A DNA stretch of 64,000 bases, from NCBI GenBank assembly GCA_949317995.1, contig OX439050.1:23013839-23077838 (forward strand). The letters run 5' to 3'. The translations under genes were made by a program, and so were the position numbers. The DNA comes from Acholoe squamosa. Its lineage: Eukaryota > Annelida > Polychaeta > Phyllodocida > Polynoidae. Positions 10,956-44,282 of the stretch are shown here, in pieces (within the stretch, counting starts at the first letter, position 1; every line of letters begins with the position of its first letter). The notes under the pieces are model-generated. The model did no database searches. It was given only the letters and a program-made list of their open reading frames with translations, and was not told the origin of the DNA.

Positions 10956-11322
10956 ATGTCGGACGGACGATATGGAAGGCAGGGGCCAGTGGCCGCCTCT
11001 CCGAGCCTGCACTCTCCGAGCCTGCAGAGACGGGGGTCTGGGTTTGGAAATCAGGCTGGAGACGCTTTTTCAGACTTAAACACAATAGTTCCCAGTGACA
11101 GGGCAGGATTGGTGTATTCTGAAGACGAAGGGACAGAAACAAACGCTGTGTTGGTGTTAAATCGGAGTTTGTCCCACGACCATGGCGCCTTGCCGAAGGT
11201 TCAGCATATTGAAGGAGGCGGGGGTGGCGGGATGCCCAACCGGCGCACCCTGTCCACTATCCCTGGGGTCTTCTGTCCTGTGGCCCTGTCTATGTTTAGC
11301 ACCGTTGTCTTCTTACGAATAG
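10956..11322 (+). CDS. SLC12A9: SLC12A9 exon 1 (start codon, N-terminal tail, TM1)
   Basis: Encodes residues 1-122 plus the first base of Gly123. The ATG has G at -3, and an in-frame TAA lies 27 bases upstream (10929), which fixes the start. The tail of about 95 residues is rich in Ser and Gly, holds a run of six glycines (87-92), and is longer than the human tail. The family-like segment begins near [13 protein letters not shown] (96-108) and continues into TM1. The donor AG|GTGAGT at 11323 is strong. The ORF would continue only six codons past it. Confidence 0.95.
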
Positions 11323-14300
11323 GTGAGTATATTAAATTATGGTAAAGTGAAACTTAGGGAGTGGTAATTATTTATCAACAGGGGGGGTGGTGGGTTTTTC
11401 GCGTGGACGCACAGAATTTTTTACGCCCCCCCCCCTCGACGGCAGTCAAAATATTTTGAGCCCCCCTCGCGCTGGAGGCACAGAGAGTTTTTGCGCCCCT
11501 CTTTGATCTATACGGCACATGGCTATTGTATTATTGAACAATGGGAGGCATCCCTGGCATATACTGCGGAGTCGGGGGCTGAAGGTGTTAGTCATAGTGC
11601 CGTCAGGGTCTAATGGCGGCCCCCAGCTGATAATGGCTATGTGAGCTATAGTAGCGCGAGGGCTTTTTTGCTAAAAAGAGGGTGAATTTTTTTAGCTCCC
11701 CCCTCAAGAGGGGTCAACATTTTTTTAGCCCCCCCCTCGGGAGGGGTCTGAAAATTTTATGCCCCCCCCTCAAACCCACCCCCCTGTTGATAGATAATGA
11801 CCACTCCCTTAGGCTTACCTGGCCTAAAGTTAGGTCTATAGGTGGTAGGAGGAACTGGAAAAAAAGTCTTCAGTTTTTATAGATTGTGGTCCCTATCATT
11901 TTATTTCATGTTGATATGCCCGAGATACTGACAGCCCATAGCTCTAGCACTTGAGGGCCGTATCGCACACCCCCCGTGCGATAACCCGCGAAAATATCAC
12001 ACGCCGAGGTCACGTGACCATTTGATGATGTCATAGGTCCAAGATGGCGATGTAAACAATACCTATGACGAGTAATTCTGTTAAATTTGATTCTATTTAG
12101 GGAGTGGTCATTATTTATCAACAGGGGGGGTAGGGTGGGTTTGAGGGGGGGGGGCGTAAAATTTTCAGACCCCTCCTGGGGGGGGCTAAAAAAATTTTGA
12201 CCCCTCTTGAGGGGGGGCTAAAAAAATTTACCCTTGTCCCTGCGGGCGTCGTGCGATACAGCACCTGATCGGCAAGTGCGATAACCCCCCGACATTCCTC
12301 CAACTCGTGAACCTTTGCTTATGTATCATCCTATTCTTGGGAGCAGCAGTGACGTCATAGCAACCAGCGCGGCCCTTATCAGCCGTATCTGCCTACTGAT
12401 AAGAAGCCTCATGAAGGGTTAAATTAAATAGGAAATGTACTAGAAAAAGGTGTTAAACCCCTTAGGCCATGTTATTCTAGTAACTTGGATTACAGGTTTT
12501 TTCAGTCAACATTTTGGTCGGTCAGGGGCAAAAAAAAAAAAAAAAAAAAAAAGTTCCAAAACTGAGTCCAAAAAGACCATCGGCCAGGGGCAAAAAAAAA
12601 GACCATAATATGTCACCAAACTAACTTTTAAGCCAACAAAATGTACATTTTTTACAAGTTTATATCGGATGGGTGGATCAATAATGGATATTTGCTGGTC
12701 TTCAAGGTCTTTTTTGAAATTTTTTACCCCTGAATGCTGAAAAAAAAGGTCGGGCAGAGGCAAAAAAAAAAAAAAAGTTGTGTTCAGGTATCCCGACCTA
12801 CCCTAATTTTTTGGCCCAACCCTAATTTTTTTTTAGAATTTTTTTTAGAACTTTTTGGTAAATATGACCCAAAATTCAAGAAAAATGAGAAAAAAGTCAA
12901 TATATAGGCATGTTTGGTATCAAATTAAAGCCCACGGTTTTTTTTTTCAGTTGGTTAATCTTTTGAACCATGTTTAATAGCATTTTGGCAGTTTTTGGCA
13001 TCCAGGAACTTTAAAAAAAGAAATCTGACCTACCTACCCTAATCATTTGGGCTATGTTGTTACCTGAACACAAGAATTTTATTTTTAGGCCTTATCAGAA
13101 AAGATCTAGACATCAGATGAGCTACAAATTCTGAAAGATATTAAATATGCATCACATACTTGATCCCCTGGCTTGATCCAATATTTTCTAACCCCAATAT
13201 TAGAAAAGAAAATAGCAAAAAGGTTAGTTTTTCTAGTACATTGCCTATAGCTCACATAGCCATTATCAGCTGGGGGCCGCCATTAGACCCCGACTCCACT
13301 ATGACTAACACCTTCAGCCCCCGACTTCGCAGTTTATGCCAGGGATGCCTCCCATTGGTCAATAATACAATAGCCATGTGCCGTATACGGACTTAGCAGG
13401 TTTAATTATTAGCCAATGAGAGAACTCCAATCTATTCACTGTGGTCCTTCGGTGACTGGGAGCCACAATGTCTCATGCCCACTAGATTCTATTGTCCGCT
13501 AGATTCTATTGTCTGCTAGATTCTATCGTCCGCTAGATTCTATCACCTGCTAGATTCTATTGCCTGCTAAAATCTATCGCCTGCTAGATTCTATCACCCG
13601 CTAGAATCTATCGCCCACTACATTCTATCGCCCGCTAGATTCTAATGCCCACTAGATCTAGCGGGCGATAGAATCTTGCCGGCGATAGATTTTAGCGGGC
13701 GATAGATTCCAGTGGGCATGAGAGAAAAACTAGTGGGTGAAGAATCATTTATAGTGGACGATGGAATCTGATGATCATCTGACAAAGGTTAGAATCTAGC
13801 AGGCATGGAATGAAAATCTGACAGAGCTTAGAATCTAGTGGGTGTAGAATCAAAATCTGATGGAGGTAAGAATCTAGTGGGCATAGAATAAACATTTGAC
13901 AGAGGCTAGAATCTAGCAGGCATAAAATTAAAATCTGACAGAGATTATAATCTAGTGGGCGTAGAATACTTGAAAAGTATAGAAATCTGACGGAGGGTAG
14001 AATCTAGCGGGTGTAGAATAAACATTTGACGGATGTTAGAATCTAGCGGGCATAAAATGAAAATCTAGGGGATACGAGATTGAATAGAGATAACTGTCGG
14101 GCGTTAGACAATAATTGAGATAATCTAGTGGGCATAGGCTGACGGGCGTTATAAAGAATGGCCTCTGGTCCTGGTGGCCATTTGTCCAGGGCCTTCTTTT
14201 CAGGTGGCCATAAATCCTGAGGGCTGTTCATCCGAGGGCCTCTTGTTCTAGGGCCTCTGGTCAGGGGGCTACCAATCCAGGGGGCCGTTTGCCCTGATAC

Positions 14301-14807
14301 CCCTGCGGTTTGCAGGAGGGCTCGACATATCAGTTTGGAACCAGTTTGTTCACAGGGATTTGTCGAGCCCTGATTCCTTCCAACCTCTGTGCCACAAATT
14401 ATTACGGTACTGCCGTAATGATAGCTGTTCCTAATGGTATGCACCCCTCACCACCCCCCCTCAAAAATGAAATCAAATAAAAACGGTCAACAAACATCAA
14501 AGCAAACAAAAGTAACAATAAAAAGATCCTTTGGCTTACCCCATTATAAGATAGTCGCACAGCGTATTAATGACCTATCCCACCTACTCCATTCAACGCC
14601 CCTGACATGGCATTGGACACACAGGAATACACAGTATCCTATACACAATGTACTCGAGCTATAAGGCGCCATATCATAAACATATTTATTGACCCATTTC
14701 TATGGCGTTGATGTAAGCCTGGACACTGATAAGGCTGTTTGTCGATAGATGTGTCATAAATGCATCTATTCCCTTTCTGTCAGATGTGCTGGTACTCTAC
14801 CACAATC

Positions 14808-14906
<99 letters not shown>

Positions 14907-17900
14907 TGTAAAACATGCACATTGGACAAACACCAATCTGCTTCATTTCCCGAACCAGTGAGGTTTTTGATAAGATTCTATGCTAATCAGCGGAATATAA
15001 TTGGGCCACGCTGAAAAAATCTGTTTCTGGTTGAGAGGATGAGGATTTTAAACGTCAGTAGGAATAGGCTTACTGGTTTCCGATGAGGTATGGTTTATAC
15101 AGGGATTACGACAGTCTTTAGATGTAATGCAGGATGCATCCTATTTATATAACCATAGTGCATGATATATTGACCCATGTTTTCAATAATACTATTGTAT
15201 CCCAAGGCCTGTATGCTGCTGATTTGTGTACTTAGTGCCAAAGGGCCTACTGGATTAATGCACTCTGAGGACCTTAAAGGGTTCGTACTGAGACAAATAT
15301 ACCAGTACTCTGGCCACTGTAGGGCCTATACTACTCTGTCACCTAGATAGGTCAGTCCCTGAGGTCAGTGCCCTTGGATTAATCCTCTGAGGACAGCAAA
15401 AGTCTTTCATGGTCATTTGTTGTCGTGATGTGCCAGCGCAACATCAGAGATTAATTTGTCGGCACTGTGTTGGTGCATCATGCGTCTATCAATGATGCAT
15501 GAATGCAGTCGTGCTACGTTACTCACCAGGGCTTCATTCATACATCAATCCATGAAGCTGCACTATATAATATGATACAGTTGCATGCTCAAGCAAACAA
15601 AGTGTTTAATCCATGAATTATCTGGGTACCATGGAGGGGTCGTCATGGGGTTGCGGACCTGGGAGTACGGTAGTTAAACCAGTGTTTGGTAGGTAGGTTT
15701 GGCTGGGCCTGGCTAGTACTGGGTATATATGTGGGTGTGTTGGTGCCCCAGAGCCTGGCTCTATGTCTAGGACAGAGTCCTGTTGTAATGCCAAGTACCG
15801 TAATACTTCACATATAAGGCGCACCATGCCTATAAGGCGCACCCCGAGTTTAAATGAATACACAGCTAAGACTTACCTTTGATATCATTACCGTAATCTC
15901 CCGCGTATAAGACGCGTCTTATACGAGGGGTTTTAGTTCTCCTTGGATCCACAAGGGGGACACCAAGACCTTTCTTTTGATATGTTACATGCCATAATGG
16001 TCATAATAGGGCATAAGGGGGCCCAGGGGGGGGGGGGTCCAGGGGGCCCAAGCTACACACAGGTTTTTAAATTTTGAAAATTCACTCAGTAGAACCAAAG
16101 TTATGAATTTTTCATTTTTTTGAGAATTTTCCAAAACTCTAGGTTCGTCTTATACGCGCACTGCGTCTTATACGCGGGAGATTACGGTAGTACTGTTCTA
16201 TGATATAATGTCCTTGCATTTAAGGCGCACCCCTAACTTTTGCTGATTCTATAAGGCGCCGTAGGAGTTCATTCTGGCATATAAGCCGCGCTTCATATGC
16301 GGGGTATTACGGAGTATGGTATGCCATGTCCCACATCCAGGCCGCACAAACAAATGCCACTGTATGGTTCTGTTCTGTTCTGCCATTCATCTACATGTAG
16401 ATCTACATCCAGCAAACCTGCTTCATTTTTTCTTTAACTACATACCATTGGCAAGGCTCTATGTGAGTGGCCACACAGAAAGGATGCAGCACAAAGGGTG
16501 TGCTTGGCTACTCATTCTATTGAATGAGTAGACCTATCTCATCAAATAGAAACAGACAGAAAGAAATAAGTGTTAGGATTCAGTGGGATATCAAAACAAT
16601 GCACTGTACTACGCCGTGTATAAGGTGCGCCTTACACGTGAAACCAACCCTTGACTTTTTTACTTATTTCAAAAATGTATTACCCTGGTAGTTTTGGTAG
16701 AAAGAAGAGTGTACATAACAGGCTGGGGGGGGGGGTATAGGGCTTACAGCTACCCTTATACAAGGACCATACTACAGTTAGAGCGCTGTATAATAAATAC
16801 AAATTAAACCACGGGTTTCTATGGTAAATATGATCTTCTCAAAAACATAGCGTGGCATTTGTGAGATATTCACCAGCTTAGAAAAGAACTGAAAAATTTA
16901 AAAGCTAAACCAAGGTTGTGCTTTCTAGGATCGTCCTGAAGACAGGGTACACCTAATATGTGAGAGAAGCCTTATATGCTGTGTTTTTTTATGGTATGAT
17001 GAGGTAGACAGGGTGGGACACTAGTACGGTCATCCACATATCATCATTCCTAATAGAAACTGAGAGCGAAACTCAAAGATATTGCTCTTTGAGATATTGT
17101 AGACATTTGATACGACAATCATCTTTTCCAAACATAATGTCCTGCTTACACAGGAAAAAATATGATTTTTACAGCTTCTAGGAAGTTGTATAAGTCCAGT
17201 TGCCACTCATGAGGTGTCAAAACAGTAAAGACCTGATGTGAGACATGGAATGTCAAACTCCAAGTGAAATCTATTGCATTTTCACAGAATTAGGATGCCC
17301 CCTTTTACGCAGGATGTGCCTAATAAAACATGGGGGTTTATGTTACTACTAGTGTACAGAAAACCTACATGACAGGGCTACAGTGGATCAGAAAATCGGG
17401 CAATTTACAACACTGGTAGTATTCTATTGCCAAGTTCTTTAATGGCATAGGTCCACCTGGTTTCTCTGAGCTACTGCCTAGATATATAACTTCCAGTTGA
17501 CTTCTGTTCAGTGGTAGATATACTTAGAATTACCATTGTGGAATCATTTCTAACTATGATCTGCTGTATAATTTGCCGCTAAATGGCTATATGATGGTAA
17601 ACATAAAGGAAACCGTTATAGACATTATGTTACTCAGTTCTCATTTTTGGATTGGTGTCCTCAATAAAAGCCACTAGCGGAATGTACTGGTAATAGATTA
17701 TGTGATAGATTAATAAACGTTACATGTACCGGGTACTACATGTGCAGATAAGAAATGGTCTGGTGGGCGTCTTGAAGAAAGAAGTGATGTAGATAAGAGA
17801 ATGTCACGAGAAGGATCTTATTAACAGTCTACAAAACTTTCCATACAAAATCAACTTTATTTAATGTAATGGCAATCCATGCTTTTAAACTTTACCAGCT

Positions 17901-20900
17901 GTTTGCTGTAAAAGAAAAAAGAGAGCACATTTCAAATCTAGATCATTTTTTCTAAAGATTGTATGTATGGAAGAAATGAGTATGGTGGGAAAGAATTCCC
18001 TGTCAGTCGTGTAAAAGAATCGAGGAAGGAGGAATTATGTGAATTATGTCGGCGTTTTAAAAATGAATAAAGGATATTTAGAGCCCCAAAATCTGTTTTT
18101 TTCTCTTTAAATAAGTATTATTTTTGCATTGAATCAGTGGAAAGTGAAGTACTTTTTGAAGACTGGTAACGCAGGTGATGTCTTCTCTTTGGTGGAGAGT
18201 GCAGGGGCTGGGGGCGGGTACAATGATCTTCTTTATCAAACCTAATGTTTGTCCCTTTATCCAAATTTGAAAAAGAGTAGAGGTGGCAGTAAACGTCAGT
18301 AGACTATATGGAATACATATTGTACCGTAAAACATGTAGCCTACATAGGGAAAAGAGGCTTATTGAAGCTTAAAGGAACGTGCCTAAGTTGAACATACAA
18401 TCACGACAAATATATCACTAAAATGATAATTTAGATCATACCAAAATGGCCTAAAAACATGCAATTTCTTTAATAGCGAATAAAAAAATCTAGGGTAAGC
18501 CCTGTTTTGCTAGGTGGGCCTGAGCATTGTCCGGAGCATTGTATATTTGGTTAGTCTAACCGCCAGGGGCAGAATAGGATTGGAATTCACAAGTACCAGG
18601 GCGCTTAATCAAACAGGGGACCAAGATAAACCATTGATTCCTCAGTCACATTACAATAACTGTATCTCCTTATCCTACTGTTATCAGTAAACTCTGATAC
18701 CTTCCGAGAAGTCGGACCACCTGACTGTGGTATCTCATCAATGGTAACCCTTAACCACGTGAAGGTCAATCTCAGCCTCAGCTCGGCAAATATTTTCCAT
18801 TTCAAACCCAGCACATAGACACATTAAAAACAGTGCGCATCTGAGACTTGATTTAGTTCACTGTAGTGCAGTCCATGATATGCTATCCTTGTATATAACG
18901 TGCAGCCACAATCTTTGCCAGTGTTGCCCAAATCTTTTTCTCAACACAGGCCAAAGTGGCCTGCGTCTTGGCATCTTACGCAGGCCATTTTTCTTTTACG
19001 CAGGCAAGATCAACTTAAAAAATTTGAATTATGTATTGAAGACAAAATTGATCATAACTTCCCTTCTATTAGGCCGATTTGAAAAATTCTTTCACTAGTA
19101 TGATGCTGAAATCATGACAGGCCATTCTGCCATTACGCCATTACGATTCTACACCAGCAAAAGCTGGCATGCCGGTGTCATTTCAGCAACACTGCCTTTG
19201 CTGATGGTATAAGGCGCATGTATGCGGGGTATAACGGTATGTATAAGTAAAGGCCATAGTTGGCAATAAGACGCTGATTCATAACTAGGCTAATGCTGAT
19301 ACACAGGGTATAGCTTGAAATGCCACTGACTCAAAGAGCGGGGGGGGGGGGGTGGGGGTCAAAGCAAAGGTTCACAAATCAGAGAACTCAGACAATACTT
19401 TAGGTGGATACAGTCATGTAGCCTAATCCAGATAACTGGTCAGTAAACCAGATCATTGACCAGACCAGGGTCAGTTCTGTGCTCCACTCGGACATGTGAG
19501 GTTTGGCCTAGGCATGGTGAATTCAATCTGACATATTATGACTCTTAACTATTCTCATGGAACTACAATCCTTCAGATCATTATGACATAACGGCAGTTT
19601 TCTTTATTCAGTTTTACATGTAGAATCTTTTTTGATACGGCTATGGGTTGATAGCTGTACATATGTATGTACTTTTAATTCAAGGAAAAGTAAAGACAAC
19701 ACTTTATGTACCTAAAATGGGTGACTGGTCTGGAGACTTAGAATTCCTTTAAAACAGGAGTGGATGCCCGTAGTAAGAGAATCTTTACCGTGATTTCATC
19801 TATTGACAGGTGGTCCCTCGTCCAGGTCCTGTTTGGTATCTATATTTCTCCCAATTTGTGTTTCTGTGAATGGTTGGGATCTTTAAGGACCGAGGAGTAG
19901 TACATCGTGCCCATTGGTCGGCATGATGCATCAATGACCTACTGGCAAGTCTGGAACATCATGCCGACCCTCCAGGAGCATATCAAATCCATAGGGTCGG
20001 CATAAATGCATGAATGTAGCCTTGATGAGTTACTCACCAGGGCTGCATTTATGCATCATGACGCATGATGCCTTTATACATGAGCAGCCCATGTCAGAGG
20101 CAGACCCAGCTGTCTACTAATCTGCCCCGACTACTGGTCGTATAGCTTGTGCGCCTTTTTACCTGCCAGTGATGGAACACATCATGCAATGGAGGCATTA
20201 TGTGCCATTTCTGTCTGCCATTTATCAACTCTAATGGAGACTAGGCTAGCCATGTATGGGTAGGCACACAAGATGGAGGTATGGTGGAAGGGCGTGTGTA
20301 CATGCGGAAGGGCTGGTTAGAGCAGAGAGGTTCTATATAACTTCTGTGGTTAGAGGGACGAAATTTGTTAGAATATTGCTCGAGAATTTTATACATGCAT
20401 GCATGGTTTACTCAAAGTTCCTTGATTTGATCTAAATTCAGTAGTACTCTACAATGGATTTAGGACTTCTGCGAATGTCTTAAGAATTTTCCATACACCC
20501 ATCTTGCATCCCTTATCAACCCATGTTGATAGCTGGTAGTCTATCAACTATCATATCCAGTGTCAATTTAAGTCATGCACGCTCGTAAAAAGAAATAGTG
20601 ACTTTTTCACATTGACGTCAGCAATATGCATTATGAACGGCTAAGGTATTGGAAAATTGTGTTGAATAATAGCTGTTTGTCTTTTGAATAAGGCAGTAGT
20701 TAGGACAAGTGACAGCATTGGCAGTGTAGTGTTGTTAACCTTAGGCCACACCAAAAAAATAAGTTGGTCTACGGATTTCCCTCTCAATATTTTCAGAAAT
20801 ATAAATTTTTTTTTCTTTGAAAAAAATCTTGTCTACGGATTTCGCTCGCTTTACTTTCTACAAGTTTTCTCTTTGTGGTGTTTGGCAATTTATTTTTTTT

Positions 20901-23900
20901 TAAATGAAATTTTTTCGCTTGCCTTACTTTTCCAGCAAGGAATCCATTGAACACCAAAAAATTCTTAAAAAAAAAAAAAAAAAAAGAAATTCGCTCGCTC
21001 GCACCATTTTTTCAAAACCAAAATCCGTAGACCAACTTATTTTTTTGGTGTGGCCTTACATATAATTGTGCCACCTTCCCTCACCTCATACATCATCTTT
21101 GTCTTTTGAGGGGGGTGATGATTATGAATGCTAACACACTCATCCACCCTGATACTGCTACCGCTCTTGAAGTGGTACCAATAGCCGCTGGCCGAGGCTG
21201 GTAAACCGTGGTGTAACATGGAATTTTACAGTGTATGGAAGACAGTAACCCACCCAAGCCTGTCATATACAGCATGTGATCCGTGATGTTATTATTTCAG
21301 TCACATCTCACAAAGCCCCAGTAACTCTATTTAGCTAAACTGGGCTGACTCTGATTTCTCCTTTGGTAATTCTATAGACATTATTGAGTTTTAAGAATGT
21401 TGAAGTAAAAAAAAATAAAATAAAATAAGAAAGTGGACACTAAATTAAGTTATCTAACATTTTACCTGAGGTGTCCTATTAGGGGTGCGCTTCTAGATAC
21501 TGCCGGTAGTCTAGTGAAGAAGTATAACATTTAATATGGTCTATCATTAAGGGGCACTGCATGCTATTGATATACTTATCAAAAGGGCGGTACCCCTGAT
21601 ATGATATCGTATATATCGTAGATTCTCACCAATAAGCTGCACCCTGACTTTGTCCTCAATTAAGCCCCATCTGGAATATGGTTTCCCCGCAGGTTAGATA
21701 GAGTTAAATGCATGAAATGTCACACGTATTAGTAGCATTCTAACTTAATAAGGAATCTATAAGCAGCACCTGGTTTTTTTGATTCGATATTCATAAGCCC
21801 TCATTTACACACAAAGATTTAAGGTAATATTCTGCATGATAGTGTACATGTATTACCTGGTATTATCCTAAACAGTCTATTAGAGAGGTACCCTGTATGC
21901 GGTAGTCTATTTTAGAAAGCTATTCAGCGACAGGGGATAAAATCATGGCCCTACCGTAATATTGACCATCAATAAGACCTCCTTCACTGTGGCCTTTAGT
22001 ATTGATCTGTTTGTGACTTTATAGTACAAACCTCCTCACCCCCCCCCCCTCCGTGTAATCTGCTCCTTTGGGAGTGGACATTTTAAATGGACAGGGGCTG
22101 GTAATTTCCAATGCAAGCTTGTAGTATCTTTACATTCCTCCTCCCCTTAACAGGAGGTGAACTTGGATAACTAAAAATAAAACGATATTCAAACCATGTA
22201 TACATAATGTGATGATTTATGTTTTCCCCCTCACACTCACATGCCACAACATTAATGGATAATCAAATGAGAAAAGAAAAAAACGATGATACAATGTAAG
22301 AGTTAAGTTCTACCTCTGCCCACACCCCATTTGTGACATTCTAAAAATTGTATGATCAGAATCAAAATGAGAATTGTGCGTGGTTTAGGTACGTCTTGTA
22401 CCTGGACCAGGTTCAGCAGTTAGGGGTGAGGCTTATATGCAAGGTTTATCTAAAAAACCGATCCAGAGGCTGTAGGTGCGCCTTCTACACAGACCTGCCT
22501 TTTCTGAGCTATGGGTGTGCCTTCTACGCGAGAGTTTACGGTAGATCTCTTTCATGAATAGTGTATACCCCTGGTATTAAATACGCATTGGTATATTTTA
22601 CAATAGTATTTGCTTAGAATGATTTAAGATCAAGCCTAAGGGGCGAGGCTCCTATGTGCGCTGCATGGCTTTCAAGTGACGTTTCATTGTAGTAACGCAC
22701 AGGTCTTTTTGCTCGAGAGGGGTAAAAGCAAAATCCAGGCCCCTTGCCTTTTAAGAAATAGTATCTCTCTCACACATATTGTGGCGTATGTAAGATAAGT
22801 AATCTAATATCACCATAGACAAGTAGGAGTATATTGAGGAACTGATAAGGGGTAGGGGGAAGGACTAGGGAAATCTAAGATCACTCAATATCTGAAGGCT
22901 ATGCATTAATGATATGGAGATGCCCTGTTTTTTTACTGTCTATCATGCCATGATGTATCGCTATTAGGATTAAAGGGAAGATTTGAGGATGAATCAAAGA
23001 AATGGAGGAGGTTAAACAGGTCTAGTTTCAACCAAGGAAAACTATGTGTGGGAAATGCCTTTTCCTATTTCCTATTTACATGTTGGCCAATGTGGTTATA
23101 TTCGGAAGCAAGGAACATTATTTTCCAAACATAAAAGTCAGTCAGGTATCAGTATGGATAAAAGACAAAGGGTTACAAGTATTGTATAGGAATCCATATT
23201 AATGTTGAGTGTAGAGCTTGTATGTATTCACTAGTATGTGCTCAGCCACACATGTGGTCTCCAGTTATGAGTGAATGGACCACTGAATTCGACATGGTGA
23301 CATGGCCATTTATCAAAATCAACATGTGACAACATAGGCACAGACATGGTGCAAAAACTAGTGACTGGACATACATATATAGGTCCTTTCTCAAATTCAA
23401 CATGGGACCTTACAGGTTCTTAGATGACAGCGGGCATGGGGATTTTACTTGACATGTGATATGAGTATTTGTTAAAATCGACATGTAACATGGGGAACAC
23501 CCATCCAGGGCCCCAGTACTAAGTGAATCATACACCCGGGTCATGGAGTGGATGTTAGTACAGCTCCTACTTCCCCGGTCACATGACCACCGCATGGGGT
23601 CACATGCTACACCCACTCAACTAACATGTCTCCTATTATTAACCCTTTAAGGACCACTTAATGCCGCAAGGTTTCTGTTCCCTACTTGACAGGGGTGTCG
23701 GAAGCAATTTGATATTAATTACATCTGTAGTGATGGTTTGATATGCCCTCACAGTGAGAACTGTATTTGAAGATTATTTCCAATACCATTCAAGATATCT
23801 CTAGTATATAAATATATCAAAATGATATAGTGTGTAAGTACTACATGTACAATTTACAACCCTATGTGTAGTCTTTTTATATGGGCCTGTCAATTGACTC

Positions 23901-26900
23901 AATACCCTGACCTAATACATTTCTAGGTATGAGAGTGTACCCACTCATAAAACAGTGGTAATAAGGACCCCTATATCAGTGTTTATGTACAAGTAGTGTG
24001 TTACAGCACCGTGTTGAGTGTTCCCAACAAGTGGGAGCACACACCATTACTGTAGTGGCCCATTTAAGCGGCCAGACGCTTATGAATTCCAATACAGTAC
24101 TACCATGTACCCTATGCCCTTATTTGAAACTAGCGCTTATTTTTTTAATACTGTTTTAGCGCTTAAGTTAAGATTGATTTCAATACCCCTTACCCCCGGT
24201 GCTTATTAAAGAACGACACTTATTTGAGACCCCTGTGGTTAACCTAAACAAGGCACGACGGTAGTCCTCTTCAATACTCACGCCGATCATATAGTTCAGA
24301 TCAGGGCAGGTCAGAGTAGGTTATGAGGACTTAGGTAGTATCAGCATACATATACACAATACAATTATAATGTATCAAAATGTATCACCCCCTCAGATTC
24401 TGTGCGGGTACTTTATTGGAAAGGGAATTTCCCATGGCACTCTAGTTTAATAAGGGAATGTGCACCCCTACTTTTAGTATAAATCAGTCAACAAATCCAT
24501 ACCCGGGGTAATACATGCAAGTTATGTATGTAAACGGGTGACAAGTATGTCCTTTTCATGTTATTTCTGAGGTGAAGTTGTCTCAATATTTGGTCTTTTC
24601 ATCAAGCTATAGAGATTTCTCCTGGGGATCCAGATACAAAATTAATATAATTTTAACCCCTCCTATAATGCGTACCCGTGATACCACTGTTAGCTACATA
24701 CATACAGAAGCATATTCAATGACCATGGAATATTTTTGTATCATATTCCCCGAGGTGGGGCTAGTGTATTCTATGAAGCCATTATATGGCTGAGTAATGG
24801 GAGTTGACGTTTGCATTTATGTCATGTCTACACAGGTTTGAAAGCTTTGAGATAATGGAAACATGACAATATTTACTCAGCATGTCACATAATCACCAGC
24901 CAAGGCCCCCCCCCTTGACTATGGCGGTTCTAGTACTAATCTATAGTGACGTTCGTATCAGCCATGGCATTAATGGTTGGTTGCGCGGATAAATTGCACC
25001 TTATATGCAGGGCATTATTCTAACATACATGTGTGCGCGTAGCTAATATCAATGCACTATTAGTACCTACTGGGTACTTGTGTTTCAGGGTTTACCGTTG
25101 GACAGTACTCGGCTACCTCATCCTCTATATGACTGATAACCATGTACTGACTGTATGTGTTTTGTGTTTCAGGTTTTATCGTGGGACAGGCGGGGTTAGT
25201 ACAGGCGTTAGTACAGCTAGTACTCGGCTACCTCATCCTCTATATGACTGATAACCATGTACTGACTGTATGTGTTTTGTGTTTCAGGTTTTATCGTGGG
25301 ACAGGCGGGGTTACTACAGGCGTTAGTACAGCTAGTACTAGGCTACCTCATCCTCTATATGACTGATAACCATGTACTGACTGTATGTGTTTTGTGTTTC
25401 AGGTTTTATCGTGGGACAGGCGGGGTTAGTACAGGCGTTAGTACAGCTAGTACTCGGCTACCTCATCCTCTATATGACTGATAACCATGTACTGACTGTA
25501 TGTATTTTGTGTTTCAGGTTTTATCGTGGGACAGGCGGGGTTACTACAGGCGTTAGTACAGCTAGTACTAGGCTACCTCATCCTCTATATGACTGATAAC
25601 CATGTACTGACTGTATGTATTTTGTGTTTCAGGCTTTATTGTGGGACAGGCGGGGTTAGTACAGGCGTTAGTACAGCTAGTACTCGGCTACCTCATCCTC
25701 TATATGACTGATAACCATGTACTGACTGTATGTGTTTTGTGTTTCAGGTTTTATCGTGGGATAGGCGGGGTTAGTACAGGCGTTAGTACAGCTAGTACTC
25801 GGCTACCTCATCCTCTATATGACTGATAACCATGTACTGACTGTATGTGTTTTGTGTTTCAGGTTTTATCGTGGGACAGGCGGGGTTAGTACAGGCGTTA
25901 GTACAGCTAGTACTCGGCTACCTCATCCTCTATATGACTGATAACCATGTACTGACTGTATGTGTTTTGTGTTTCAGGTTTTATCGTGGGACAGGCAGGG
26001 TTAGTACAGGCGTTAGTACAGCTAGTACTCGGCTACCTCATCCTCTACATGACCATCCTCTCCATCTGTGCCATCTCTACAAATGGAGCTGTGGAAGGAG
26101 GCGGAGCATACTGTACCCTTTCTAACCCTTTAAGGGTCACATAGTAGTTCAATGCACTACATGGATATCATGATATATGGATGCAAAAAGAAAGTCTACT
26201 TCAAAGAGCTGCACCCCATGCATCATGATGCACCAATACCGCGCTTGTGAGTAACTCACCAGCACTACTTTGCTGAATCATGACGACAAAGAAGCATGAA
26301 CCTGGAGGCATCATTAGTTGTCCAAGAGACTGCTGCCCGATTTGTGATGTTAGATCACCCATTTTGTATTGCCAGACAAATTCAAAAAACAAATTGGCTG
26401 AACTTATAAAAAAGAAAGGGAAGAATTTGGTCAATAGATTTTTTAGATCATCAGATTTTTAAATTCAATCTATTAGCTAAAAACTTTAAATCGGTTATTA
26501 AATATTATTGTGATTGTGATGAATTTTGCCCTTAACCAGTGTTAGTTATGATTAGTCGTGCGCTAGGACCGGAGTTCGGTGGCAGTATCGGAGTACTTTT
26601 CTTCTTGGCAAACATCATCTCTTGTGCACTCTACGTGTCAGGATGCGTGGAAGGAATTCAAGAAAACTTTGGTCCCGGCGGTAAGTCATTTAGATTTATA
26701 AAGTTGATGATAAATTGTCACTACAAATTGTCAATGATAAAGTTGCAAGTAGCGACATATCAGACGGTTGCTATAATTAAAATTACACATCCCTCCTCTA
26801 TATAGATGGGGGACCTTCATACTGGGACTGATTTGGTTTGGTTGATTTAACCTCCACTAATGTGCATGAAGGGTACCTTCCAGATTAAATATCATATCCC

Positions 26901-29900
26901 ATGAAACTCAAAGACTGGACAAGAAGTTGAAGATGATCAATATGAGGGATAGATAAGACAGAACATGGAGCAGATAATTTGTGGATGACAGCTTATAATA
27001 CTTATCCTATTAGGCCCCTATATGGTTTGTATGTCTCCTCAGCAGTCCATGGTACAGGCATGGAAATACTGTCTCACGACAGTAAAACTAATTCCAGCTA
27101 AGACTAATTCCAGCTAATACTCGGTAGGATGTTTACTGATGACAGGGGGCGCCTGAGGTATTGCAGGTATTAATGTATGACTGGTATAAGCTTCCTAAGA
27201 AATATTTGTCATTGCATCAAGCCATGAAAATTTATCTTTGGTGATGAAAAGTAGATGTGTGCAGAGAAATGTATAAGTATGTATTCATCTGTCATTAAGA
27301 GATGCCGTCAGGAAACAGTGAGTAAACTACAGTTTACGTTTACAAACCCAAACAAATAGTGCCTGAGTGACCATCGTTATTTGGTGCTACCATATCTTTT
27401 ATACTTTACATGTGCTATATATCCTACATGTGCTATACTCCCTTGTATTATTGCAACTCCTTACTGAATGAGCCCAGTTGATTAAATCAACTAAAAAGTT
27501 GTATTTACTAACATGATGTGCCCTGCCCTTTTGACTCGGATTTTTTTATGTTTCGTTTGGTTTATTAGTATTCATGATGGCCCATATTATCGTTGACCAG
27601 TAATGGCTAGTCCTTTCGGTGTCCTACATGGTCGTCATGATGTATGAATGTAGCCCTGGCGAGTTTCTCACCAGGGCTATCCATTCACCAAGATGACAAA
27701 TGTGCATACTGCATTGAAGCATCACTTAAAATGGTGTACACTGTTTATGCATAATAAAGACTAAAAGTGTTTCCCTTGCCAATAGTTTGGTATACTTAAG
27801 TATACACTAGCCCCATAGATCATGCAGTGCTATTTCATAAAGTGTTGTGTCCCCATAGGTGCCATATTGTAGACAGATAAGTTTCAATGTCGCTTTCTTT
27901 TGATACATGTTCATAATGTTTAAATGTATATCTTTATATTTTTTCACTTTCAAATCTTTGTACATTCGGCTATAGGGATATTCTAGCTGTATATATGGCG
28001 GCTTTATTACCCGGTGATCTAGGTGTAGAAATAGTCGCAACATAATTCAGCAAATAAACACCCAGATATTCCTATATACCAATGCGTATAAAAAATTTCC
28101 CATTATAATATATTGAAAACGTTAAAAGAAAAAGAAGCAATATGTTGACTTTGGTGGGGTAACCATAAGAAGCCAAATTCACGCTTGAGGCTTGAATAGG
28201 AAGTGGAAAGCCTATCACAGTCCCACAAAAAAAGTAAAGAACTGAAACGTAACCCTTTTTATCCGAAGATGAAAACAAGTAAAATTTCCCCAACTGATTT
28301 GTGCTATTCCTCTTACAGGTACAATAGGGAGTTTCCTACCTGGTGGGAACCAATGGTGGACGTATCTCTACGCGACATGCGTCCTCGCCTTCTGCCTTAT
28401 TATTTGCCTTATCGGGGGCTCCATGTTCGCTCGCACCTCCATCTTTATCCTTGTGGTAAGTCGGATTTTGTGAAATTCTAAGTAATCTGTAGTGCAAAGA
28501 AAAAAAATATATATGAAAAGATCAGTTTCGTAGAATTCTTTGTCTAAAGTAAAGGCAAAATAAAAAAATCACTACAGCTATGCTGTATCTTCCTTAAAAT
28601 ATCTAACAATCCTTGAATAAGAGGATCCTCGCTGACTCTTTTCTTTTCCTGCCATAATCCCCTTTCACTAAAGTAAAGATCAGCGAATCAAGAGTTTGGT
28701 ACAAGATATAAACCTTGAAAAATACAGACAAAACAAATTTATTCTTGGGTGAGATGTTGACTACACCACCTGTCTTACAGGTAACTCTAGAGTAGGCAGA
28801 ATGTTTACCAACTGAAAACTAAATAAATGGATCAGGAGATACTTGTCTCTCCAGGCAAACATTTATTAACCTATTTTTTTTCCGAGAGTCACCTTGGAAA
28901 AAACAAAGGGCCGTGGAGCATTTTTCTCATACATACATGTGTTATGTTGCCAAAACTAGTGAGTGATATGACCTATCTGACCTTTGACCTGTGACCTTAA
29001 CACACTGAGAGAGCCTGGCACAGGAGACAACACTGGGCTGTATGTCCACTCATACATCAGTGAGAAGATGGTGCATAGGCGTATGCCCTGGCTTGAGTAT
29101 CTAAAAAAATATATATATATCTTTAATATGAAAAATAATTTTTGTATCACCTTAGGCAGATGGCAGGTAAGGTTAACTAGTTTTATCAAAAGTAAGGGAA
29201 AAGGCAAAAAAAAAAAAAAAAGAAAAAAAGAAGATAATAAACGATATTAGGGTGGCGGTCAGATTGGATTGCAAGATTTCCATTCCTATTGTGATTGTTC
29301 TCTTTCCTCTAAATCCTGGTTTACCTTTATCAATCCATTAGATAGGTCAGTCTGAACACAATGTCTAATTGTGGACATAGGCCAAGCCTAAAGTAGTCTA
29401 ATTAATTAATATCGATCTGCAGACGTAGACAGGAGGTTAATACTCTACCCACAGACAATTAAATGAATTGAGGATTAGACTTATTTTGGGGTGAGGAAGT
29501 AATTACCACAGTTATTGAATCTTTATCTATATTAATGATGTTGTATCTACAGATGTAGTATCAGCAGATAATAAGTGATAAGTGATTCATGATATATCTG
29601 GATCCCTACCAAGTGGCCAATGGACACCTCAGGGATTCCTGGGACCTACTTTTTACCAGTAGTTTTGATATCAGATGGTCCATAATTACAATTTTGAAAA
29701 GAATTAAACATTTTAATAAATACCGTAATCCCCTACGCATAAGGAGCATCCCGCCTATAAGATACACTTAAGTGGTTTTAGAATTTGGTCAGAAAAATAC
29801 AAAATTCATAGCTTTTGTTTTACTTGAATTTTCAAATCTTATAAAGCTGCATGTAGCTAGAGCCTCCTGGCACCCCTAGAATTAAGGGGGAGTGTAACAT

Positions 29901-32900
29901 ATCAAAAGCAAGGTCTTGATGTCCCCCCTTGCGGATCCAGGGTGAACTAAAACCTTGCTTATAAGACACGCCTTATATGTGGGAGATTACGATATGTATG
30001 ATCGATTTGGACCAGTTTAGTAGAATATCCTCGCGTTAAAGGTGCCCCATGACTTGTGGCAGATTTAACGGTCTATCCTTGTGTATTGGCTGCACCTTAT
30101 ACACTGTCAGTGACTACTGTACTGTAAAACCTTAATATGTAATGTCAAGGCGAACGAAAGTCAGGGTGCGTTTTTTTTTAAGCTGTGCCTTATATTTGAG
30201 GTGCTACTGTAGTGTGCCTTAAAAGGTTTTCCTAAAGTCAGGGTGCTTATTATATGGTACATGCACCAGTAAATCACACTGTACTACAGTACAACACTAA
30301 AATAACCAGGAGAATCATGATCAGAACATACATATTCAAACTACATGTAGTAAACTGTTCACCTGGCGCTTATAGATGCAAGACCAGCACTCATTCCTCA
30401 GTCAAGGAATGAGATTTTTGAATTTTAATGCCATTGTACCCATGGCGCTTATTTTGAGGGTTGATTACTCCTGGCGCTTATACAAGACAGGTGCTTATTT
30501 AAAACCCGACGTGAAATGCTGTGAAACAATGCGTGCCATTTCAATACTTGTGTAAAAACATTTTACCTTTGCTGTGTTGTAGAGCATACCGTAATCTCCC
30601 GTGTACAAGATGTGCCTTATATGTGGGAGGTTACAGGGATTTAGTTCTCCCTGGATCCACAAAGTGGACACCAAGGCCGTATTTTGATATGTTACATGCC
30701 CCCTAAGTCAAAATAGGACATACGGGTGACCCTGGGGGGGGGGGGGTTTGGAGGACCAAAGCTACACATATCTTTTTGAATTTTTAAAATCCATTCAATA
30801 GAACAAAAGTTTTTAATTTTTTTTTGACCATTTCTGAAACTAGCTGCGACTTACATGAAGGGTGCACCTCATATGCGGAAGATTACGGGTACCGGTACTA
30901 CCATAATCTCCTGCGTAGAAGGATCAGCTTGCGTAGAAGGCGCACCCCTGAGGGCAGATTTTTGTCAGTTTAGTACTGTTCTATAGTAAAAAAAACACTC
31001 CTATAAGGCGCACCCCAAACTCAAGGCAATGTCCCTCCCACGTATAAGACCCAGCAGCATTTTGTTTGGCTTAGAAGACGCGCCTTATACGCGGGAGATT
31101 ACGGTAACAATGGTCTGTCAGCTGTCAGTACCACAGTTATACAGACTGTATGTATATAGCAGATCCTGTTCCTATTGTTAGTCTAAGGACAGATGTTAAA
31201 TAATCATCAATATGGGGTGATTCACGGATATGTACCAGGTACAACTTTGTGTCAGAGACATAGACCGATCAACCAAATCACCATTTGTTTCATGTGATTA
31301 TTGATCAATTCTACCAAAAATGTGTCACTTACAAATTAGTTTCACAGCTACTTTGATAAAGGCATGGTGGAAAAACAAGTCTGTAAAAACTATAATAATG
31401 GAGAATGAAATTCACTTTCTTCACGCCCCCATGAAGAATGAGTCTTCCCCATACAAAATGGTATGGCGTGAAGAAACTGGATCTTGTTATTCATGGCCCC
31501 ATACTCCACTGTGAAGCCATCAAAATAGCATTGAATGCTATCTCATTACTTAAGTACTTCATGTATAAGCGGTTGTTTGTAAAACCAGGCAACGCTGCTC
31601 GTTATATTCATGGTAAAATCACGCTAATGTTGTATGAAACTACCAGGTCCTCAAAATCAAACCCTAGCTGCGTCTCATAGCGTCTGCTTGAAGATAATGA
31701 GCGGCTTATACGTAGGATTGCCTTATATATACAGGATGTCGGCAGAGGTTCACAGTAATCTGTCCAGACGAACATGAGTGAAGAAAATGAGAGTTGGGGA
31801 AGATTTTAGTGAATTTTTGTAGTTATTTCATGTTTAAAATGAATGAGATAGCAATATAAAGACTGGACCCAAGGCTATTTTGATGACTACTCAGTGGAGA
31901 ATGGGGCCCTGAATAACGGGATCTAGTTTCTTCACGCCCTAGTGGAGATTGGCTTTGCCTATGCTTTACTATAGGGACTGTCATTCTCAACATGAAATAA
32001 ATTTCACAGGTCTCCTCCACATGAAATAAACTGTTTCATCCTTCTGTACCTATGTACCTTACACTTACAGGTGGTGATCACGTGTATATTAACAGTCGTC
32101 ATCTCCATGTTCGTCACTGGGCCGTTCTGTGTCGACTATGCTGTCGCGAGCTACCCAGCACCTGCAAAGAACGACACAAACTTCACCATTCCATGTGGCA
32201 ACTACACTGGCTTCAGCGCCGAAACCTTTGTTAGCAACCTCGGTTGTGAGTATACCATTTTCCTAACTCTTGGGCTAAAAATTAGATTTTTACCGATTTT
32301 CATTTGTCAGAGCGAGGAGGTGACTTCACATCGTGGAGATAGATCCTTATTTCCTAAATGAGCTTCAAGTTAAATCTGAAGCAGATGCTTATTATGATTT
32401 AGAGGAATTTTCTCTCTCAGGTCATAGTAAGGCTCATATGATAGCTTATAAGAGAAATCAAAGTCAGAGAGTTGCTTATATGAGACAAAGGGGTTATATG
32501 TGAAAAATTAAGAAACTTACAGGTACATCTTTAAGTCCTTAGCTTTGATAATATAGCAAAAGTTGGATGAGCTATGTCTAAATTTTTTCATGGTCCGTGA
32601 TATTGGGGATAGAGCCTGCTTTAAGAAGAGCTTACTCCTTAACAGTAGTTAATGTTTGAATATTTCATTATATGGGATTGTTTTATCTTACAGCGGACTA
32701 TGGCAAGGACTACCAGTCGGGTGATATAATGACCTTCGCTACCGTGTTTGCCGTTCTCTTCAGCAGCGTTACCGGTATCATGAATGGTGCCAACATGTCT
32801 GGTAAGGAACTCTTCAGAAGTCACTTCTCTTTATGCTATGGGTGTTTAAGATATTACAAGAGCTCATAGCCACTACCATATGGAGCTTTGGCTTCCCTAG

Positions 32901-35900
32901 CCCACTTAAAAGGGTCTATATCTCCTCTTTCCTATCCCCTCAGGATGTGTGTGGTGCACATATGCGCGAGCACTGACACATTCCTCTGTTAAATTATCAA
33001 CCTGTGAAGCACGGGATAGCCACTTAGTGCCGCTAAAGTGCTGTAAAACACAAATCAATCAATCAATTCCCTAGCCCACTAAAAGGGTCTTTCCTATCCA
33101 GTCAGATGTCTGTGGTGCACCCATGCGTGGGCACCGAAACATTCCATGAATATGACCTTAAATGGCATATATACATCTAATACTGTCTCCCTCACCATAT
33201 GGAGCTGCAATAGATAAGTCCTATTGCAGTTTATTGTGTGGGTGCGCAGTGCGATTTCACATTGAGAATGTGATTTAGATATTTTCCAAGCATTGCCCCC
33301 TCCCCAAAAAAATAAACAGGAGATAAATCTAAAAAGAAAACAACTAAAAAAAAGACATGTTGTTGGGCTGTACCACTGATAATTGCTAGAAGTAAAGTCC
33401 ATAGTCTAAACTCCTTTGGACTCTAAGTTTCTGTGACTAGCCTTATGTGCAAAGTTATTCGGAGAGATAGCCCAGAGATTTAAAGTTGTTCTATTGGCCT
33501 CGCAGTTCAGAAAAAAAAAACACCTTGTGAATTGGAAATGCTCGCTTTAAAAACCCAAGCTTTGTTTTGACCTTTAATGAGGTTTAGCTTTTATTGTGGC
33601 TGCATGACCGGGCCTGTGTGCATCCTGATGACCTTTCCGTGAGAGCTCAACTGAAAGGTCAACATTTGGAGCGCACCGGCCAGCTGCATGCATATTCGCT
33701 AATTTGGTAGAGAAAAAGGGTAATGGTGTTAGCATTACATAAAGTAGAGTTTAACCATCCCTTTTAATCATCAAGTCTTAAAATTATAGACTAAGAGATA
33801 AGGAAATGTATGGGGAACATTTTTGTAATTCAAAATTTCTGTTTGTGTACATAGGTGAGTTGAAGGACCCAAGTAAAGCGATTCCCCGCGGTACACTGTC
33901 GGCCGCCACCTTCACCTTCATGACCTACGTCTTCTTGGCGCTAGTCACTGCAGCCACTACCACAAGGTAATATACAACTCTGATAAAAACTGTCATCTCA
34001 ATTAAATCTTTTTTTATTTTTAAAGATATTTTTACTTTAATATACTGGAGTTTAGTATCAGATTTGGTTTCTGTTAATACTTTTCTCTTATGATTTTACC
34101 CCCTCCTCTAATGTGCTACCATGTACTGAAGAGACTTGTTCTTTCCAACCCTGTCCTCATCTTCTGCTGGCCTACCATGTCCTGTCTTGTCTAATGCTGA
34201 ACTGAAGAGACCTGGTCCTTTTGTCCTACCTAGTCCTAGCTCACAGTCATCAGCCCTGGTCTCTCATCCCCTTTTTTATGTGATAGCTGTCTACTATGGT
34301 TATTCTTTTAGATTTTACAAAAAGAAGGTTAAAATATGCCACATACGAACTTGAAGAAATAATCATTTTATGTACTTGTGCAATAATTTAATTCTACATA
34401 AAAAACAAACACACAAAAAAAAAAAAAAAAAAAACAACAACCGTCGCCTACACTCCTCCCTTTGCATTCTGTATCATTCCTGATATGGTCTCTTACCTAC
34501 TTCACGGATGCCCTCTGCTGCCCCGCCCCTCCCCTTATCACTTGTCTAATGACTTAAGACACTTGAATCTGTGACTCTATTATTTATATCATTGAGTAAT
34601 GAGTATTTTGGATAAATTTAGTCCTGAAGAAGGTTCGAAAGAGCCGAAACATGAACCACCTGTAACCCAATTGTAGCTTTAGTGATTATTTTTTCATCTA
34701 GTACTGCTGAAAAGGGGTTTGAGAATATATCCCTACCATTTTTCAACTATATAATTTCCACAGACCGCTGCTGCTCAACAATTACCTCTTCATGCTGCCT
34801 ATAAGTGTGTGGCACCCAATTGTCGTGATCGGCATCATGGCTGCCACGCTCTCTGCTGCACTAGGCAACCTCATCGGGGCATCCCGCATCTTGGAAGCAC
34901 TCGCAAATGATAAATTATTCTGTAAGTATTCATCATATCATAGTGACCTTTTCCTGTGTGCATGTTACATTTTCGTGAGGTAAAATATTTTCAATTTCAA
35001 TCTACACACATAGAATATGCACACATGTATAGATGCAACTATTCATTGGAAAAATATTTCCAGTGGAATAAACGAACTAGTTTTAGGAAGCTGAGCTGCA
35101 AAAATCATAAACATTAGTGCGATGGTTATACTGAAAAAAATCACTTCACCCCCTCCCCCGGGTCACTATTATAGAGTATTAGTGTTTGACAGGTACTACA
35201 GGTGGCAGCACTATTCAGTCACAGAATTGGACATTCTGATTGATGTGGGCTATTTTGACACAGGTTTAGTGTAGGCAGTACCTCACGTCTAAGGCGCATT
35301 CTGTGTTAACCTTCTCATGGTCATGAATTCCTGCGGGCAGCAAATTGCTGTTATGGATGGAAGACCATTAACATGAAATTTACCAATAAAAGATTGTCAA
35401 ACTCGAACTCAGCAAATGAACTCAACTTTTGCAAATATCTGAAATGACTATTATTCAGTATCATAGCTAGTTTTCTATATCAAGTGAAATGATAACTTGG
35501 TCATAATAACCTAGGTTTGCTATCATTAGACTGGTATTGAATGCTAGCGTGTCTTAAGCCGACTAGTCTCCGCTTTCCTTTGCAAATGATAAAGTCGGAC
35601 AGAAGTGCGAGCAGAGTAGCACATAATTATCAAAAGTTATTGATTTTTTTTTGTGAATCTTGTCGGATATCGCTCATCTGCAGTGGCAATGCGTTGTAAC
35701 CCTGCCACAGGAGGGATCCACTGATGGAAACTTTTTGTCTGTTTCTGCTCGGTGACTAGAAACACAGTCTCCGTTGCAATAGTGGATCCCACCCTTTAAA
35801 CCTAGCACGTTACATCAGACACCCACAGTGCGAGCCGCGTGTGGTGTCAACATGAGCATCACTCATATACAAGTGTCATATTGACATATAGTGACAGGCA

Positions 35901-38900
35901 GCCATAGGGGCTGTATAATGCACAGCTAGACTCAACATCAACTCATACCCGCATGGTCATAATACGTCTGTGGAATAGGCTGAAAATTAAGTGAGAAAAA
36001 AAAAAGATGATATATTTTTTTTTCATATTTATGATGTAAGGGCCTATAATGATATAGACCCATATACCAGCTGATTTATTGGTCATACCATAATATCCAG
36101 TGTATAAGGCGCACCCTGAGTTCAGGAACAATCCACTAGGGGCGTCTTAAGTCATTCTGGTCATTTTAGTACTGTACTATAGCATTAAATCCTTACAGAG
36201 AAGAACCGTGACCTCAATAGGGTACAGCAGCAGCATAGAGTCCCCATGTATTACAAGGTGCACATTTTTTTGCTATGGGATTATAAGTGTAACGGCTTGT
36301 ATATTGGTACCTTGAACCTGGGGTTAAGTCAAGAGTGCATATTATTATGAGGTAGGTGACTCTGAGGTAGGATCCTCTCTTCTTTCAAACCAAAATGCGC
36401 TAGGCCCTGTATCCCCTTCTGGCTCAATCTCCTGTAGATAAAAGACCTTTGCCTAACCCTCGACATATTCCAGAGCTTTAACACCTCTATGGTAAAAGTA
36501 TACCGCTTTATGTGAATTCCTTTGCATAATTGTTGATTTTAGGGAAGTTGCTGAACCCAGCGGCGATAACGACGCGTGGCGGGAACCCCATCCCTGCAGT
36601 CATCATCTCATGGGTCTTAGTACAGGTAGGTGCAGTCTGAGGGAGTAACCCTTACAGGGCCGCCAATACATTAGGGCATCATGCCCATCTGTCTTCATTG
36701 ACGCGTCATACCGACCCTCTGCGAGTGTACCAGCCTGTAGTGTAGGGTTGGCATGAAGCATGATTGCAGCTCTGGTGAGTTACTTGCCAGGGCTGCTTTC
36801 ATGCATCATGCACCACCTATAGGTCTGATGCATTAAGGCATTAGCTGCCTTAAACAATTGATGCTTGGGGAAGATCTTACCAAGTTCATAATCACAAGTA
36901 AAGGACAACATGACGTCAAGTGATCTTAAGAGGGGGCTAAAGGAATGGTCGGTTTAACCTGCATAGCGCATTAATGCACCATGCTGACTACCTCATATGG
37001 AATTATGGCAAAGGGTTGGCATGATACACCAATGCAGCAAGGGAGTAGACTAGCCAGCCCTGCTTTGGAGTTTCATGATCAGTGTTGCTTTTATGTAACA
37101 CACCGCTCCTGGACGGTTTAACAGAAACTAACCCAAGTTTGAAATGGGATTTGTTGAATGTAGAGGGTTTTAAGAATTATTTGTTTGAAATTCTAATCAA
37201 AATTTGTATTCACCTGTATGTTTCTTTGTTGTCAGCTTGTGCTGCTTATCGGGTCGCTGAACGCCATCTCCCCGCTTGCCTCTGTGTTCTTCCTGCTGTC
37301 TTATGCTGCGACAAATCTTGCCAGTCTTGGTCTTGAACTGGCCTCTGCCCCCAACTTCAGGTAATTGTATTGTGTAGATGTTATCTGGAATAGGGTAATC
37401 TAGAATCATTGTTGAGATCAAGAAAATAAGGTTCACAAATTTCTATTTTCTATTGCCATGTTGACAACAGTTGTGCTTATCTTGGTAACTTAACAAGTAA
37501 ATGTGTCAAGAATATTAACTTGGAGACTACTTTAATTGTAAAATAAGTGAGGTTTTTATGGTTCCAGATTTATCAATTCACTTTTTATATGGTATGCATA
37601 GTCTCCTAGCAACATTTTTATAATTATAAACGGTCATTCTAACGATGCATACTATGCCTGGAGCTTAAATGTCTATATAAGTGATGTGAATGATCAGTTT
37701 ATCAATTATTCATTTGGCCTATCAAATTCTCTGATGTGACACAAAAATGCATCATTTCTTTCTTCCTCCACCAGGCCGACATTTAAGTACTTCAGTTGGC
37801 ACACGGCATTGCTGGGCTTTATAAGCTCCATCGCCATGGTGTTCCTAATTAATCCGATCTACGGCTCGGTGTCGGTCTCCATGTGTATGGTGCTGGTCAT
37901 CGTGCTGCACTTCCGCACCTTCCCCACCTCCTGGGGCTCCATCAGCCAGGCCCTTATCTTCCATCAGGTATGTAGGGCAACACAGCCCTTTTGTAGTACA
38001 AAGATTCTGTTTTTTCCTGCTTTTAAGGAAATTCCTGCCACATTCACATGGATTTTCTGTCATTGAATTATGTTATCTTAATGGTCCCTTTCTTGTATAA
38101 TCTGCAAAACTTAAAATAATCCCTGAATCTGAACAGTTGATTAAAGATTTTCCTCTCTATAGTAACAACCAAAGACTTTGAAAAGGAGATCACTGACCGA
38201 ATGAGATTTTGGATATCATTTGACTCAAAGATGCCTACCGGTAGTTGTATTACCTTGAGTGAAATATTGTACATTTTTATTTCAGGTCCGTAAATACCTA
38301 CTGATGCTGGACAGTCGTAAGGACCATGTCAAATTCTGGCGGCCTCAGATCCTGCTTATGGTGTCCAACCCTCGTGCCGCCATCCCACTGATGGACTTTG
38401 TAAATGACGTGAAAAAAGGCGGCCTCTATGTTCTGGGTCATGTCAGTGTCGGGACACTCGACCAATACCAAGAAGACCCTTCTATAACCGAGATGCCCCA
38501 TTGGATGAACCTAATCGACTACCTTAAGGTAAAGGCATTTGTCGAGGTGACTCTGGCTACCTCCATCAGGGAGGGCATGCACCATTTGGTCCGCCTATCA
38601 GGGCTCGGCGGGATGAAACCAAACACAATCTGCCTTGGCTTCTATGATGAGACTAAACCTGAGGATATCCTAGCTAAGAAGGCGGCTACTGGGCGGGCCA
38701 AACGCAGGATACGCTTTTATGGAAGTGAGGAGGCACCATCAGTGATCCATGAGAGTTTCCCTGATCTTCGACAGGCGGAGACTCAGAAGCATCTAAAGGA
38801 GGATGAGTATGTGATGATGGTGGTGGACTCATTAAAGATGAACAAGAACCTGTGTCTGTGCCGGCACTTCCACCTCTGGGACAAGGAAGCTGTCATCAAG

Positions 38901-44222: not shown

Positions 44223-44282
44223 GCCATGTCCTTTTATTGGGTGTTATGATGCAGCATTGGGTATTGGTGAATCTACCCACCG

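Follow-up and report, generated by a model that had tools for sequence, protein, structure and literature searches.

The window examined, a stretch of 64,000 nt from the polynoid annelid Acholoe squamosa, contains a plus-strand gene of 12 exons (10956-39470) whose joined exons form a single open frame of 970 amino acids (Table 1). The predicted protein matches the Pfam families AA_permease (PF00324, 5.9e-72) and SLC12 (PF03522, 1e-18). It also matches 35 distinct sequences in the PDB, of which SLC12A2 is the best (4.9e-86) and none is named SLC12A9. The label SLC12A9 derives from an earlier reading of the same DNA (the original prediction), from a human sequence that served as guide and from the U12 intron of human SLC12A9; as judged from the sequence this identity is plausible, not proven. 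A protein search of the species' own genome (1.48 Gb in 63 contigs) gave 23 matches, 19 of them at the gene itself, and of these 19 seven fall on the array units that precede the true exon. The other four are weaker (47-52% identity) and lie on other contigs, and neither a second copy nor a retrocopy was seen in this search, in which the best candidates only were scored. The genome also includes a mitochondrial contig of 15.6 kb, on which 23 of 24 tRNA calls and the recognised protein genes lie on the plus strand, in an order of the annelid pattern that suggests an annelid host. A long AT-dinucleotide-like tract at about 4420-4870 of that contig lies in the presumed control region, between tRNA-Ala and tRNA-Ser.

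Table 1. Features of the SLC12A9-like gene and of the array at its intron 1/exon 2 boundary (window coordinates).
Feature	Position	Strand	Basis or remark
Exon 1, coding part	10956-11322	+	Donor ATAG/GTGAGT; phase 1, frame continuous into exon 2; own-genome protein match
Intron 1, 14,655 nt, major type	11323-25977	+	3′ end holds the array
Degenerate leftmost copy	25050-25133 (left limit approximate)	+	Alignment; diverged intron part, acceptor end 25088
Array, eight 115-bp units	25134-26053	+	Per unit, 39 nt of intron end and 76 nt of exon 2 start
Donor-like GTATGT to AG, 20 nt (example, unit 1)	25153-25172	+	Generic donor score -0.1
Last base of intron 1, sole acceptor giving full-length protein	25977	+	Each acceptor tried in the spliced gene
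Exon 2, 135 nt (45 codons)	25978-26112	+	Spliced frame
Intron 2, 433 nt, phase 1	26113-26545	+	U12-type signals: donor GTACCCTTTC at 26113, CCTTAAC at 26530-26536, acceptor GTTAG
Exon 3, 135 nt	26546-26680	+	Spliced frame
Exon 4	28319-28455	+	Spliced frame
Exon 5	32071-32245	+	Spliced frame
Exon 6	32694-32801	+	Spliced frame
Exon 7	33855-33966	+	Spliced frame
Exon 8	34764-34921	+	Spliced frame
Exon 9	36543-36625	+	Spliced frame
Exon 10	37236-37360	+	Spliced frame
Exon 11	37775-37967	+	Spliced frame
Exon 12 with stop; SLC12 domain	38286-39470	+	Spliced frame, domain match

The junction between intron 1 and exon 2 is covered by a tandem array, delimited by TRF as 25104-26053 with a period of 115, 8.3 copies, 97% matches and no indels. 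Its score is 1823, against 699 for the next best of the 26 TRF rows in the window. Each of the eight full units contains the candidate branch site TACTGAC, a T/G-rich tract, TTTCAG and then 76 nt from the start of exon 2, in agreement with the original prediction, and the eighth holds the true intron 1/exon 2 boundary. In all eight units the A of TACTGAC precedes the final base of the intron by 22 nt, and no AG occurs between this A and the acceptor AG. Nine TTTCAG acceptors are found between 24901 and 26100, ending at 25088, 25172, 25287, 25402, 25517, 25632, 25747, 25862 and 25977. A gap of 84 nt separates the first two (25088 and 25172), and from the second onwards the spacing is exactly 115 nt. 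The exon part of the degenerate leftmost copy carries a 31-nt deletion. An eightfold repeat in such perfect register is not the product of chance, and an array of boundary units is of a kind already described as ‘mirages’ in lancelets.

Pairwise identity among the eight units is 95.7-100% (mean 97.8%), which bears out the predicted eight near-identical acceptors accompanied by one degenerate one. Only eight columns vary. Units 1, 3 and 7 are identical and represent the commonest form, units 2 and 4 have in common substitutions at +27 and +53, units 4 and 5 have in common a substitution at -14, and in unit 6 a CAG is changed to TAG. The true exon 2 is unlike all other units at +20 and +71; both changes are synonymous and, from -39 to +76, they are the sole difference between the last unit and the commonest form. 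On sequence grounds, this mosaic of substitutions is the pattern that unequal exchange would leave. That an assembler inserted the extra copies is highly improbable: the evidence comes from a single assembly, but the copies carry private and shared substitutions together with a degenerate edge, and 1.48 Gb in 63 contigs suggests that long accurate reads were used.

The genomic background was sampled as 200 kb from the same genome, in 20 stretches at hand-picked round coordinates, and contained two arrays with a period of at least 60, at least four copies and at least 85% matches. By this small sample minisatellites as such are common in the genome, and it is not improbable that one should cover an exon edge. 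Inspected by eye, the open frames near five sampled arrays elsewhere in the genome showed nothing decisive. Within intron 1 a 17-bp array (13477-13717) consists of 10.6 copies of GCCCGCTAGATTCTATC followed directly by 3.6 copies that read as the reverse complement, forming a potential hairpin. Downstream of the gene two minisatellites lie near each other at 43975-44679, one with 10.6 copies of 23 bp and one with 9.3 copies of 43 bp, at 94-95% matches. A tandem duplication of a segment of about 1.48 kb occupies 53832-56791 (97-99% identity in three blocks), and the open reading frames 54653-54895 and 55051-55266 within it have no Pfam match. A reverse-transcriptase fragment on the minus strand (1182-2141; RVT_1, 1.9e-08) is probably a retroelement remnant.

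Scored with a matrix built from the acceptors of the gene's ten other introns, the eight unit acceptors reach 10.2-10.8 and the degenerate acceptor 4.25. The two that were checked against the 822 AGs of intron 1, 25172 and 25977, both lie at the 99.8th percentile. With scores this similar, local strength gives no basis for a choice among the eight. As the last unit has no distinguishing change from -39 to +76 except the two synonymous ones, the choice must come from its place. RNA folding gave no signal, either for two units (z 0.84) or for the last unit with exon 2 and its donor (z -0.90).

The consequences of the choice are set by the reading frame. Only acceptor 25977 gives the full-length protein of 970 amino acids, as had been argued in the original prediction, and a coding use of the array is rejected on this basis. 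The other eight acceptors lead to truncation at 127-208 residues. The predicted length of about 185 residues holds for five of these eight (25172, 25287, 25402, 25517 and 25632), from which the stop comes after 186 residues. It does not hold for 25088 (136 residues), for 25747 (127 residues, caused by the TAG of unit 6) or for 25862 (208 residues, the stop lying beyond exon 2).

All eight of these stops fall 1219-2209 nt before the last junction, and by the distance rule for decay it is the position of a stop relative to that junction which counts. Together with the equal scores of the acceptors (10.2-10.8, with the two checked at the 99.8th percentile), and with the rare-class appearance of the donor that defines the true exon, this would fit an expression dial, in which transcripts spliced at upstream acceptors are lost or useless and the number of copies sets SLC12A9 output; the sequenced individual would then perhaps carry a weakened allele. 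We consider the dial unlikely, since splicing is reportedly undisturbed at the amphioxus mirages and, in one study, isoforms with early stops around minor introns escaped decay (PMC8034651). The frame, intact over 12 exons, also speaks against it, although the array is young by unit identity and the frame therefore says little about present expression. Such control by copy number had been the second alternative of the original prediction.

Each of the eight units also carries a donor-like site of its own, a modest U2-type ACT/GTATGT located 20 nt before the AG ends (GTATGTG in six units, GTATGTA in units 4 and 5). A unit acceptor combined with the GTATGT site 95 nt downstream could define frameshifting decoy exons and so make the array a source of poison cassettes; when one decoy exon was included (seven were tested) the stop came after 162 residues in six cases and after 127 in the unit with TAG. 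This is very improbable. With generic weights for the major class the site scores -0.1, which is above 85.8% of the 784 GTs of intron 1 and below the gene's 10 donors other than that of exon 2 (1.27 to 6.88). An intron ending at the next AG would be just 20 nt long, and the site falls among the branch and T/G elements of that acceptor, so that only acceptors further on would be usable by decoy donors.

Exon 2 begins with GT, and splicing would regenerate a GT in seven of the eight units (unit 5 has GC). The AG/GT unit starts might in principle be re-used as donors, with the array removed stepwise, yet GTTTTA scores -3.92 as a donor by the same weights and such recursive splicing is extremely unlikely. 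A recursive splice site, or ratchet point, needs a usable donor directly after the acceptor and was rejected as a candidate on the same score.

The downstream side of exon 2 is formed by an intron that looks, from its splice signals, to be of the U12 type. The donor of intron 2, GTACCCTTT, agrees with the consensus RTATCCTTT at eight of nine positions, the mismatch being at +4, against 3-5 of nine in the other ten introns; seven of the 3788 plus-strand GTs in the window reach 8/9, this donor included. Near the 3′ end of the intron the core CCTTAAC is exact (7/9 against the branch consensus TTCCTTRAC), and its A lies 10 nt ahead of the final base of the intron. A match of 7/9 also occurs within the last 45 nt of introns 3, 8, 10 and 11, where the exact core is missing. 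The joint chance of the intron 2 donor and branch is 7.5e-6, or 8.3e-5 over 11 introns, in a post hoc test based on the window's own GT and AG backgrounds with the intron 2 sites included.

As a major-class donor that of exon 2 (ACT/GTACCC) scores -5.96, the worst of 11 and at the 29.8th percentile of the 784 intron-1 GTs, and the acceptor of intron 2 has the worst score as well (-1.34). Both values would be explained if intron 2 is U12-type. The contrary view, of a major intron whose very weak donor makes exon 2 poorly defined, was dropped on the U12-type signals. With a U12-type intron 2, exon 2 would be a major/minor hybrid exon.

The genome contains two U11 and two U12 genes above the Rfam gathering score, and at gathering scores Rfam has no match in the window. 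One U11 starts with AAAAAGGG, and six Watson-Crick pairs are possible between it and donor positions +4 to +9. The C at +4 of the intron 2 donor is a Watson-Crick partner for a U11 G, where the consensus T would wobble. Human SLC12A9 and SLC12A4 appear among the U12-intron genes listed in a 2025 preprint, which leaves the intron unspecified.

Taken together, these features make it quite likely that the locus is a mirage-type minisatellite whose pre-mRNA offers eight equivalent acceptors, with the last mainly used through bridging from U11. The array would be a tandem duplication, young and evolving in concert, of the boundary between intron 1 and exon 2 in an otherwise intact SLC12A9-like gene, presenting eight equivalent acceptors of the major class. 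Acceptor 25977 yields an exon of 135 nt and the next upstream acceptors exons of 250, 365 nt and longer. U11/U12 on the donor at 26113 may bridge the shortest of these to U2AF at 25977. Under exon definition the splice sites nearest to each other across the exon are described as favoured (the cross-exon proximity rule). In addition, U11-59K is reported to bind U2AF in bridging across exons that join major and minor introns (PMC8034651), and a U2-type 3′ site can be activated by U11/U12 bound at a U12-type 5′ site downstream of it, apparently within limits of distance (PMC8329584). From these three lines 25977 is expected to dominate, and it is on them that we infer both its use and its dominance. 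The ‘strong bias to the most distal site’ of the original prediction is likewise favoured, by analogy with the published amphioxus cases and by exon definition. The existing mirage class, the apparent U12-type donor of exon 2 and the donor-like site in each unit had been missed there.

Mis-choices among the acceptors would give truncated, probably non-functional products, a leak that may be tolerated, as the array itself mostly would be. Its length is expected to vary between alleles. Should bridging fail, the expected outcome of major splicing is that exons 2 and 3 are both skipped, with the in-frame loss of 90 codons.

Several points count against this reading. Competing 3′ sites are described as showing a general upstream preference, which under exon definition with long flanking introns is reduced and not shown to be reversed, and this weighs against dominance of 25977. 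Lang and Spritz, working with duplicated sites in 1983, reportedly found 5′ to 3′ scanning, which would favour the upstream acceptors. The departure of the intron 2 donor from the U12 consensus at +4 counts against it too, as does the U2-type donor-like site in each unit with the decoy exons it could make. Finally, amphioxus is a distant chordate, which weakens its use as an analogy.

If U11 does bridge to 25977, the array might further act as a copy-number-tuned sensor of minor-spliceosome activity, although this is improbable. Less U11, or less of its partners, would then favour the upstream acceptors and their early stops, or transcripts lacking exons 2 and 3 in frame; SLC12A9 output would thus report on U11 activity, and array length would set the gain. 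Competition between acceptors is hard to read when site strengths differ. At this locus the eight acceptors are almost the same in branch site, tract and AG as well as in 76 nt of exon, leaving position and the downstream donor, which seems to be of the minor class, as nearly the sole variables. It therefore represents a natural test that could separate first-come selection from cross-exon bridging between two spliceosomes. It also bears on the fate of mirages outside lancelets and on intron change from boundary repeats, as proposed for lancelets, humans and potato (PMC3087553, PMC2812944, PMC4974935).

By analogy, the locus is most probably a mirage in an animal other than lancelets. The amphioxus mirages lie in the globins BflGb6 and BflGb9, Adh3, TnC and PGBD5, the last two being added by the PGBD5 paper, and are reported to be variable in length without disturbing regular splicing (PMC3087553, PMC3902484). 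In both settings a minisatellite-like tandem duplication lies over an intron-exon boundary, and the array resembles the BflGb6 mirage in joining the intron end to the start of exon 2, in unit size, in high identity and in its divergent edge. Of four features listed for mirages two were tested and both are found here, namely tandem units that span the boundary (39 nt of intron and 76 nt of exon, eight times) and homogenised units (mean 97.8%) with a diverged edge copy; the other two are length variation between haplotypes or somatic cells and undisturbed splicing. Unlike the amphioxus cases, the present one concerns another animal and gene, has eight full units and a U12-type donor ending exon 2, and was studied in one genome assembly. 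In a literature search of partial coverage ‘mirage’ as a name for such repeats was met only in the two lancelet papers, and no first is claimed; in PMC7960049 ‘Mirage’ is the name of a transposon.

The potato RdRp gene (PMC4974935; Rogers model) similarly has a duplicated segment that crosses intron 1/exon 2 and includes the AG together with its branch site and tract. In potato a single duplication produced a new spliced intron, whereas here there are eight copies and no sign of a new intron. Internal tandem repeats of human segmental duplications (PMC2812944) are minisatellites, described as sometimes placed at exon-intron boundaries and as a possible source of new introns; they have on average 30-bp units in four copies, in recent paralogs and with half in coding sequence, unlike the array described here. 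In the U11-binding splicing enhancer (USSE) and in U11-59K/U2AF bridging (PMC8329584, PMC8034651), as proposed here, a U11-bound U12-type 5′ site aids an upstream U2-type 3′ site. In contrast to the USSE, the U12-type site at this locus is a presumed real donor that faces eight rival acceptors, and the combination of mirage and U12-type donor is the new element.
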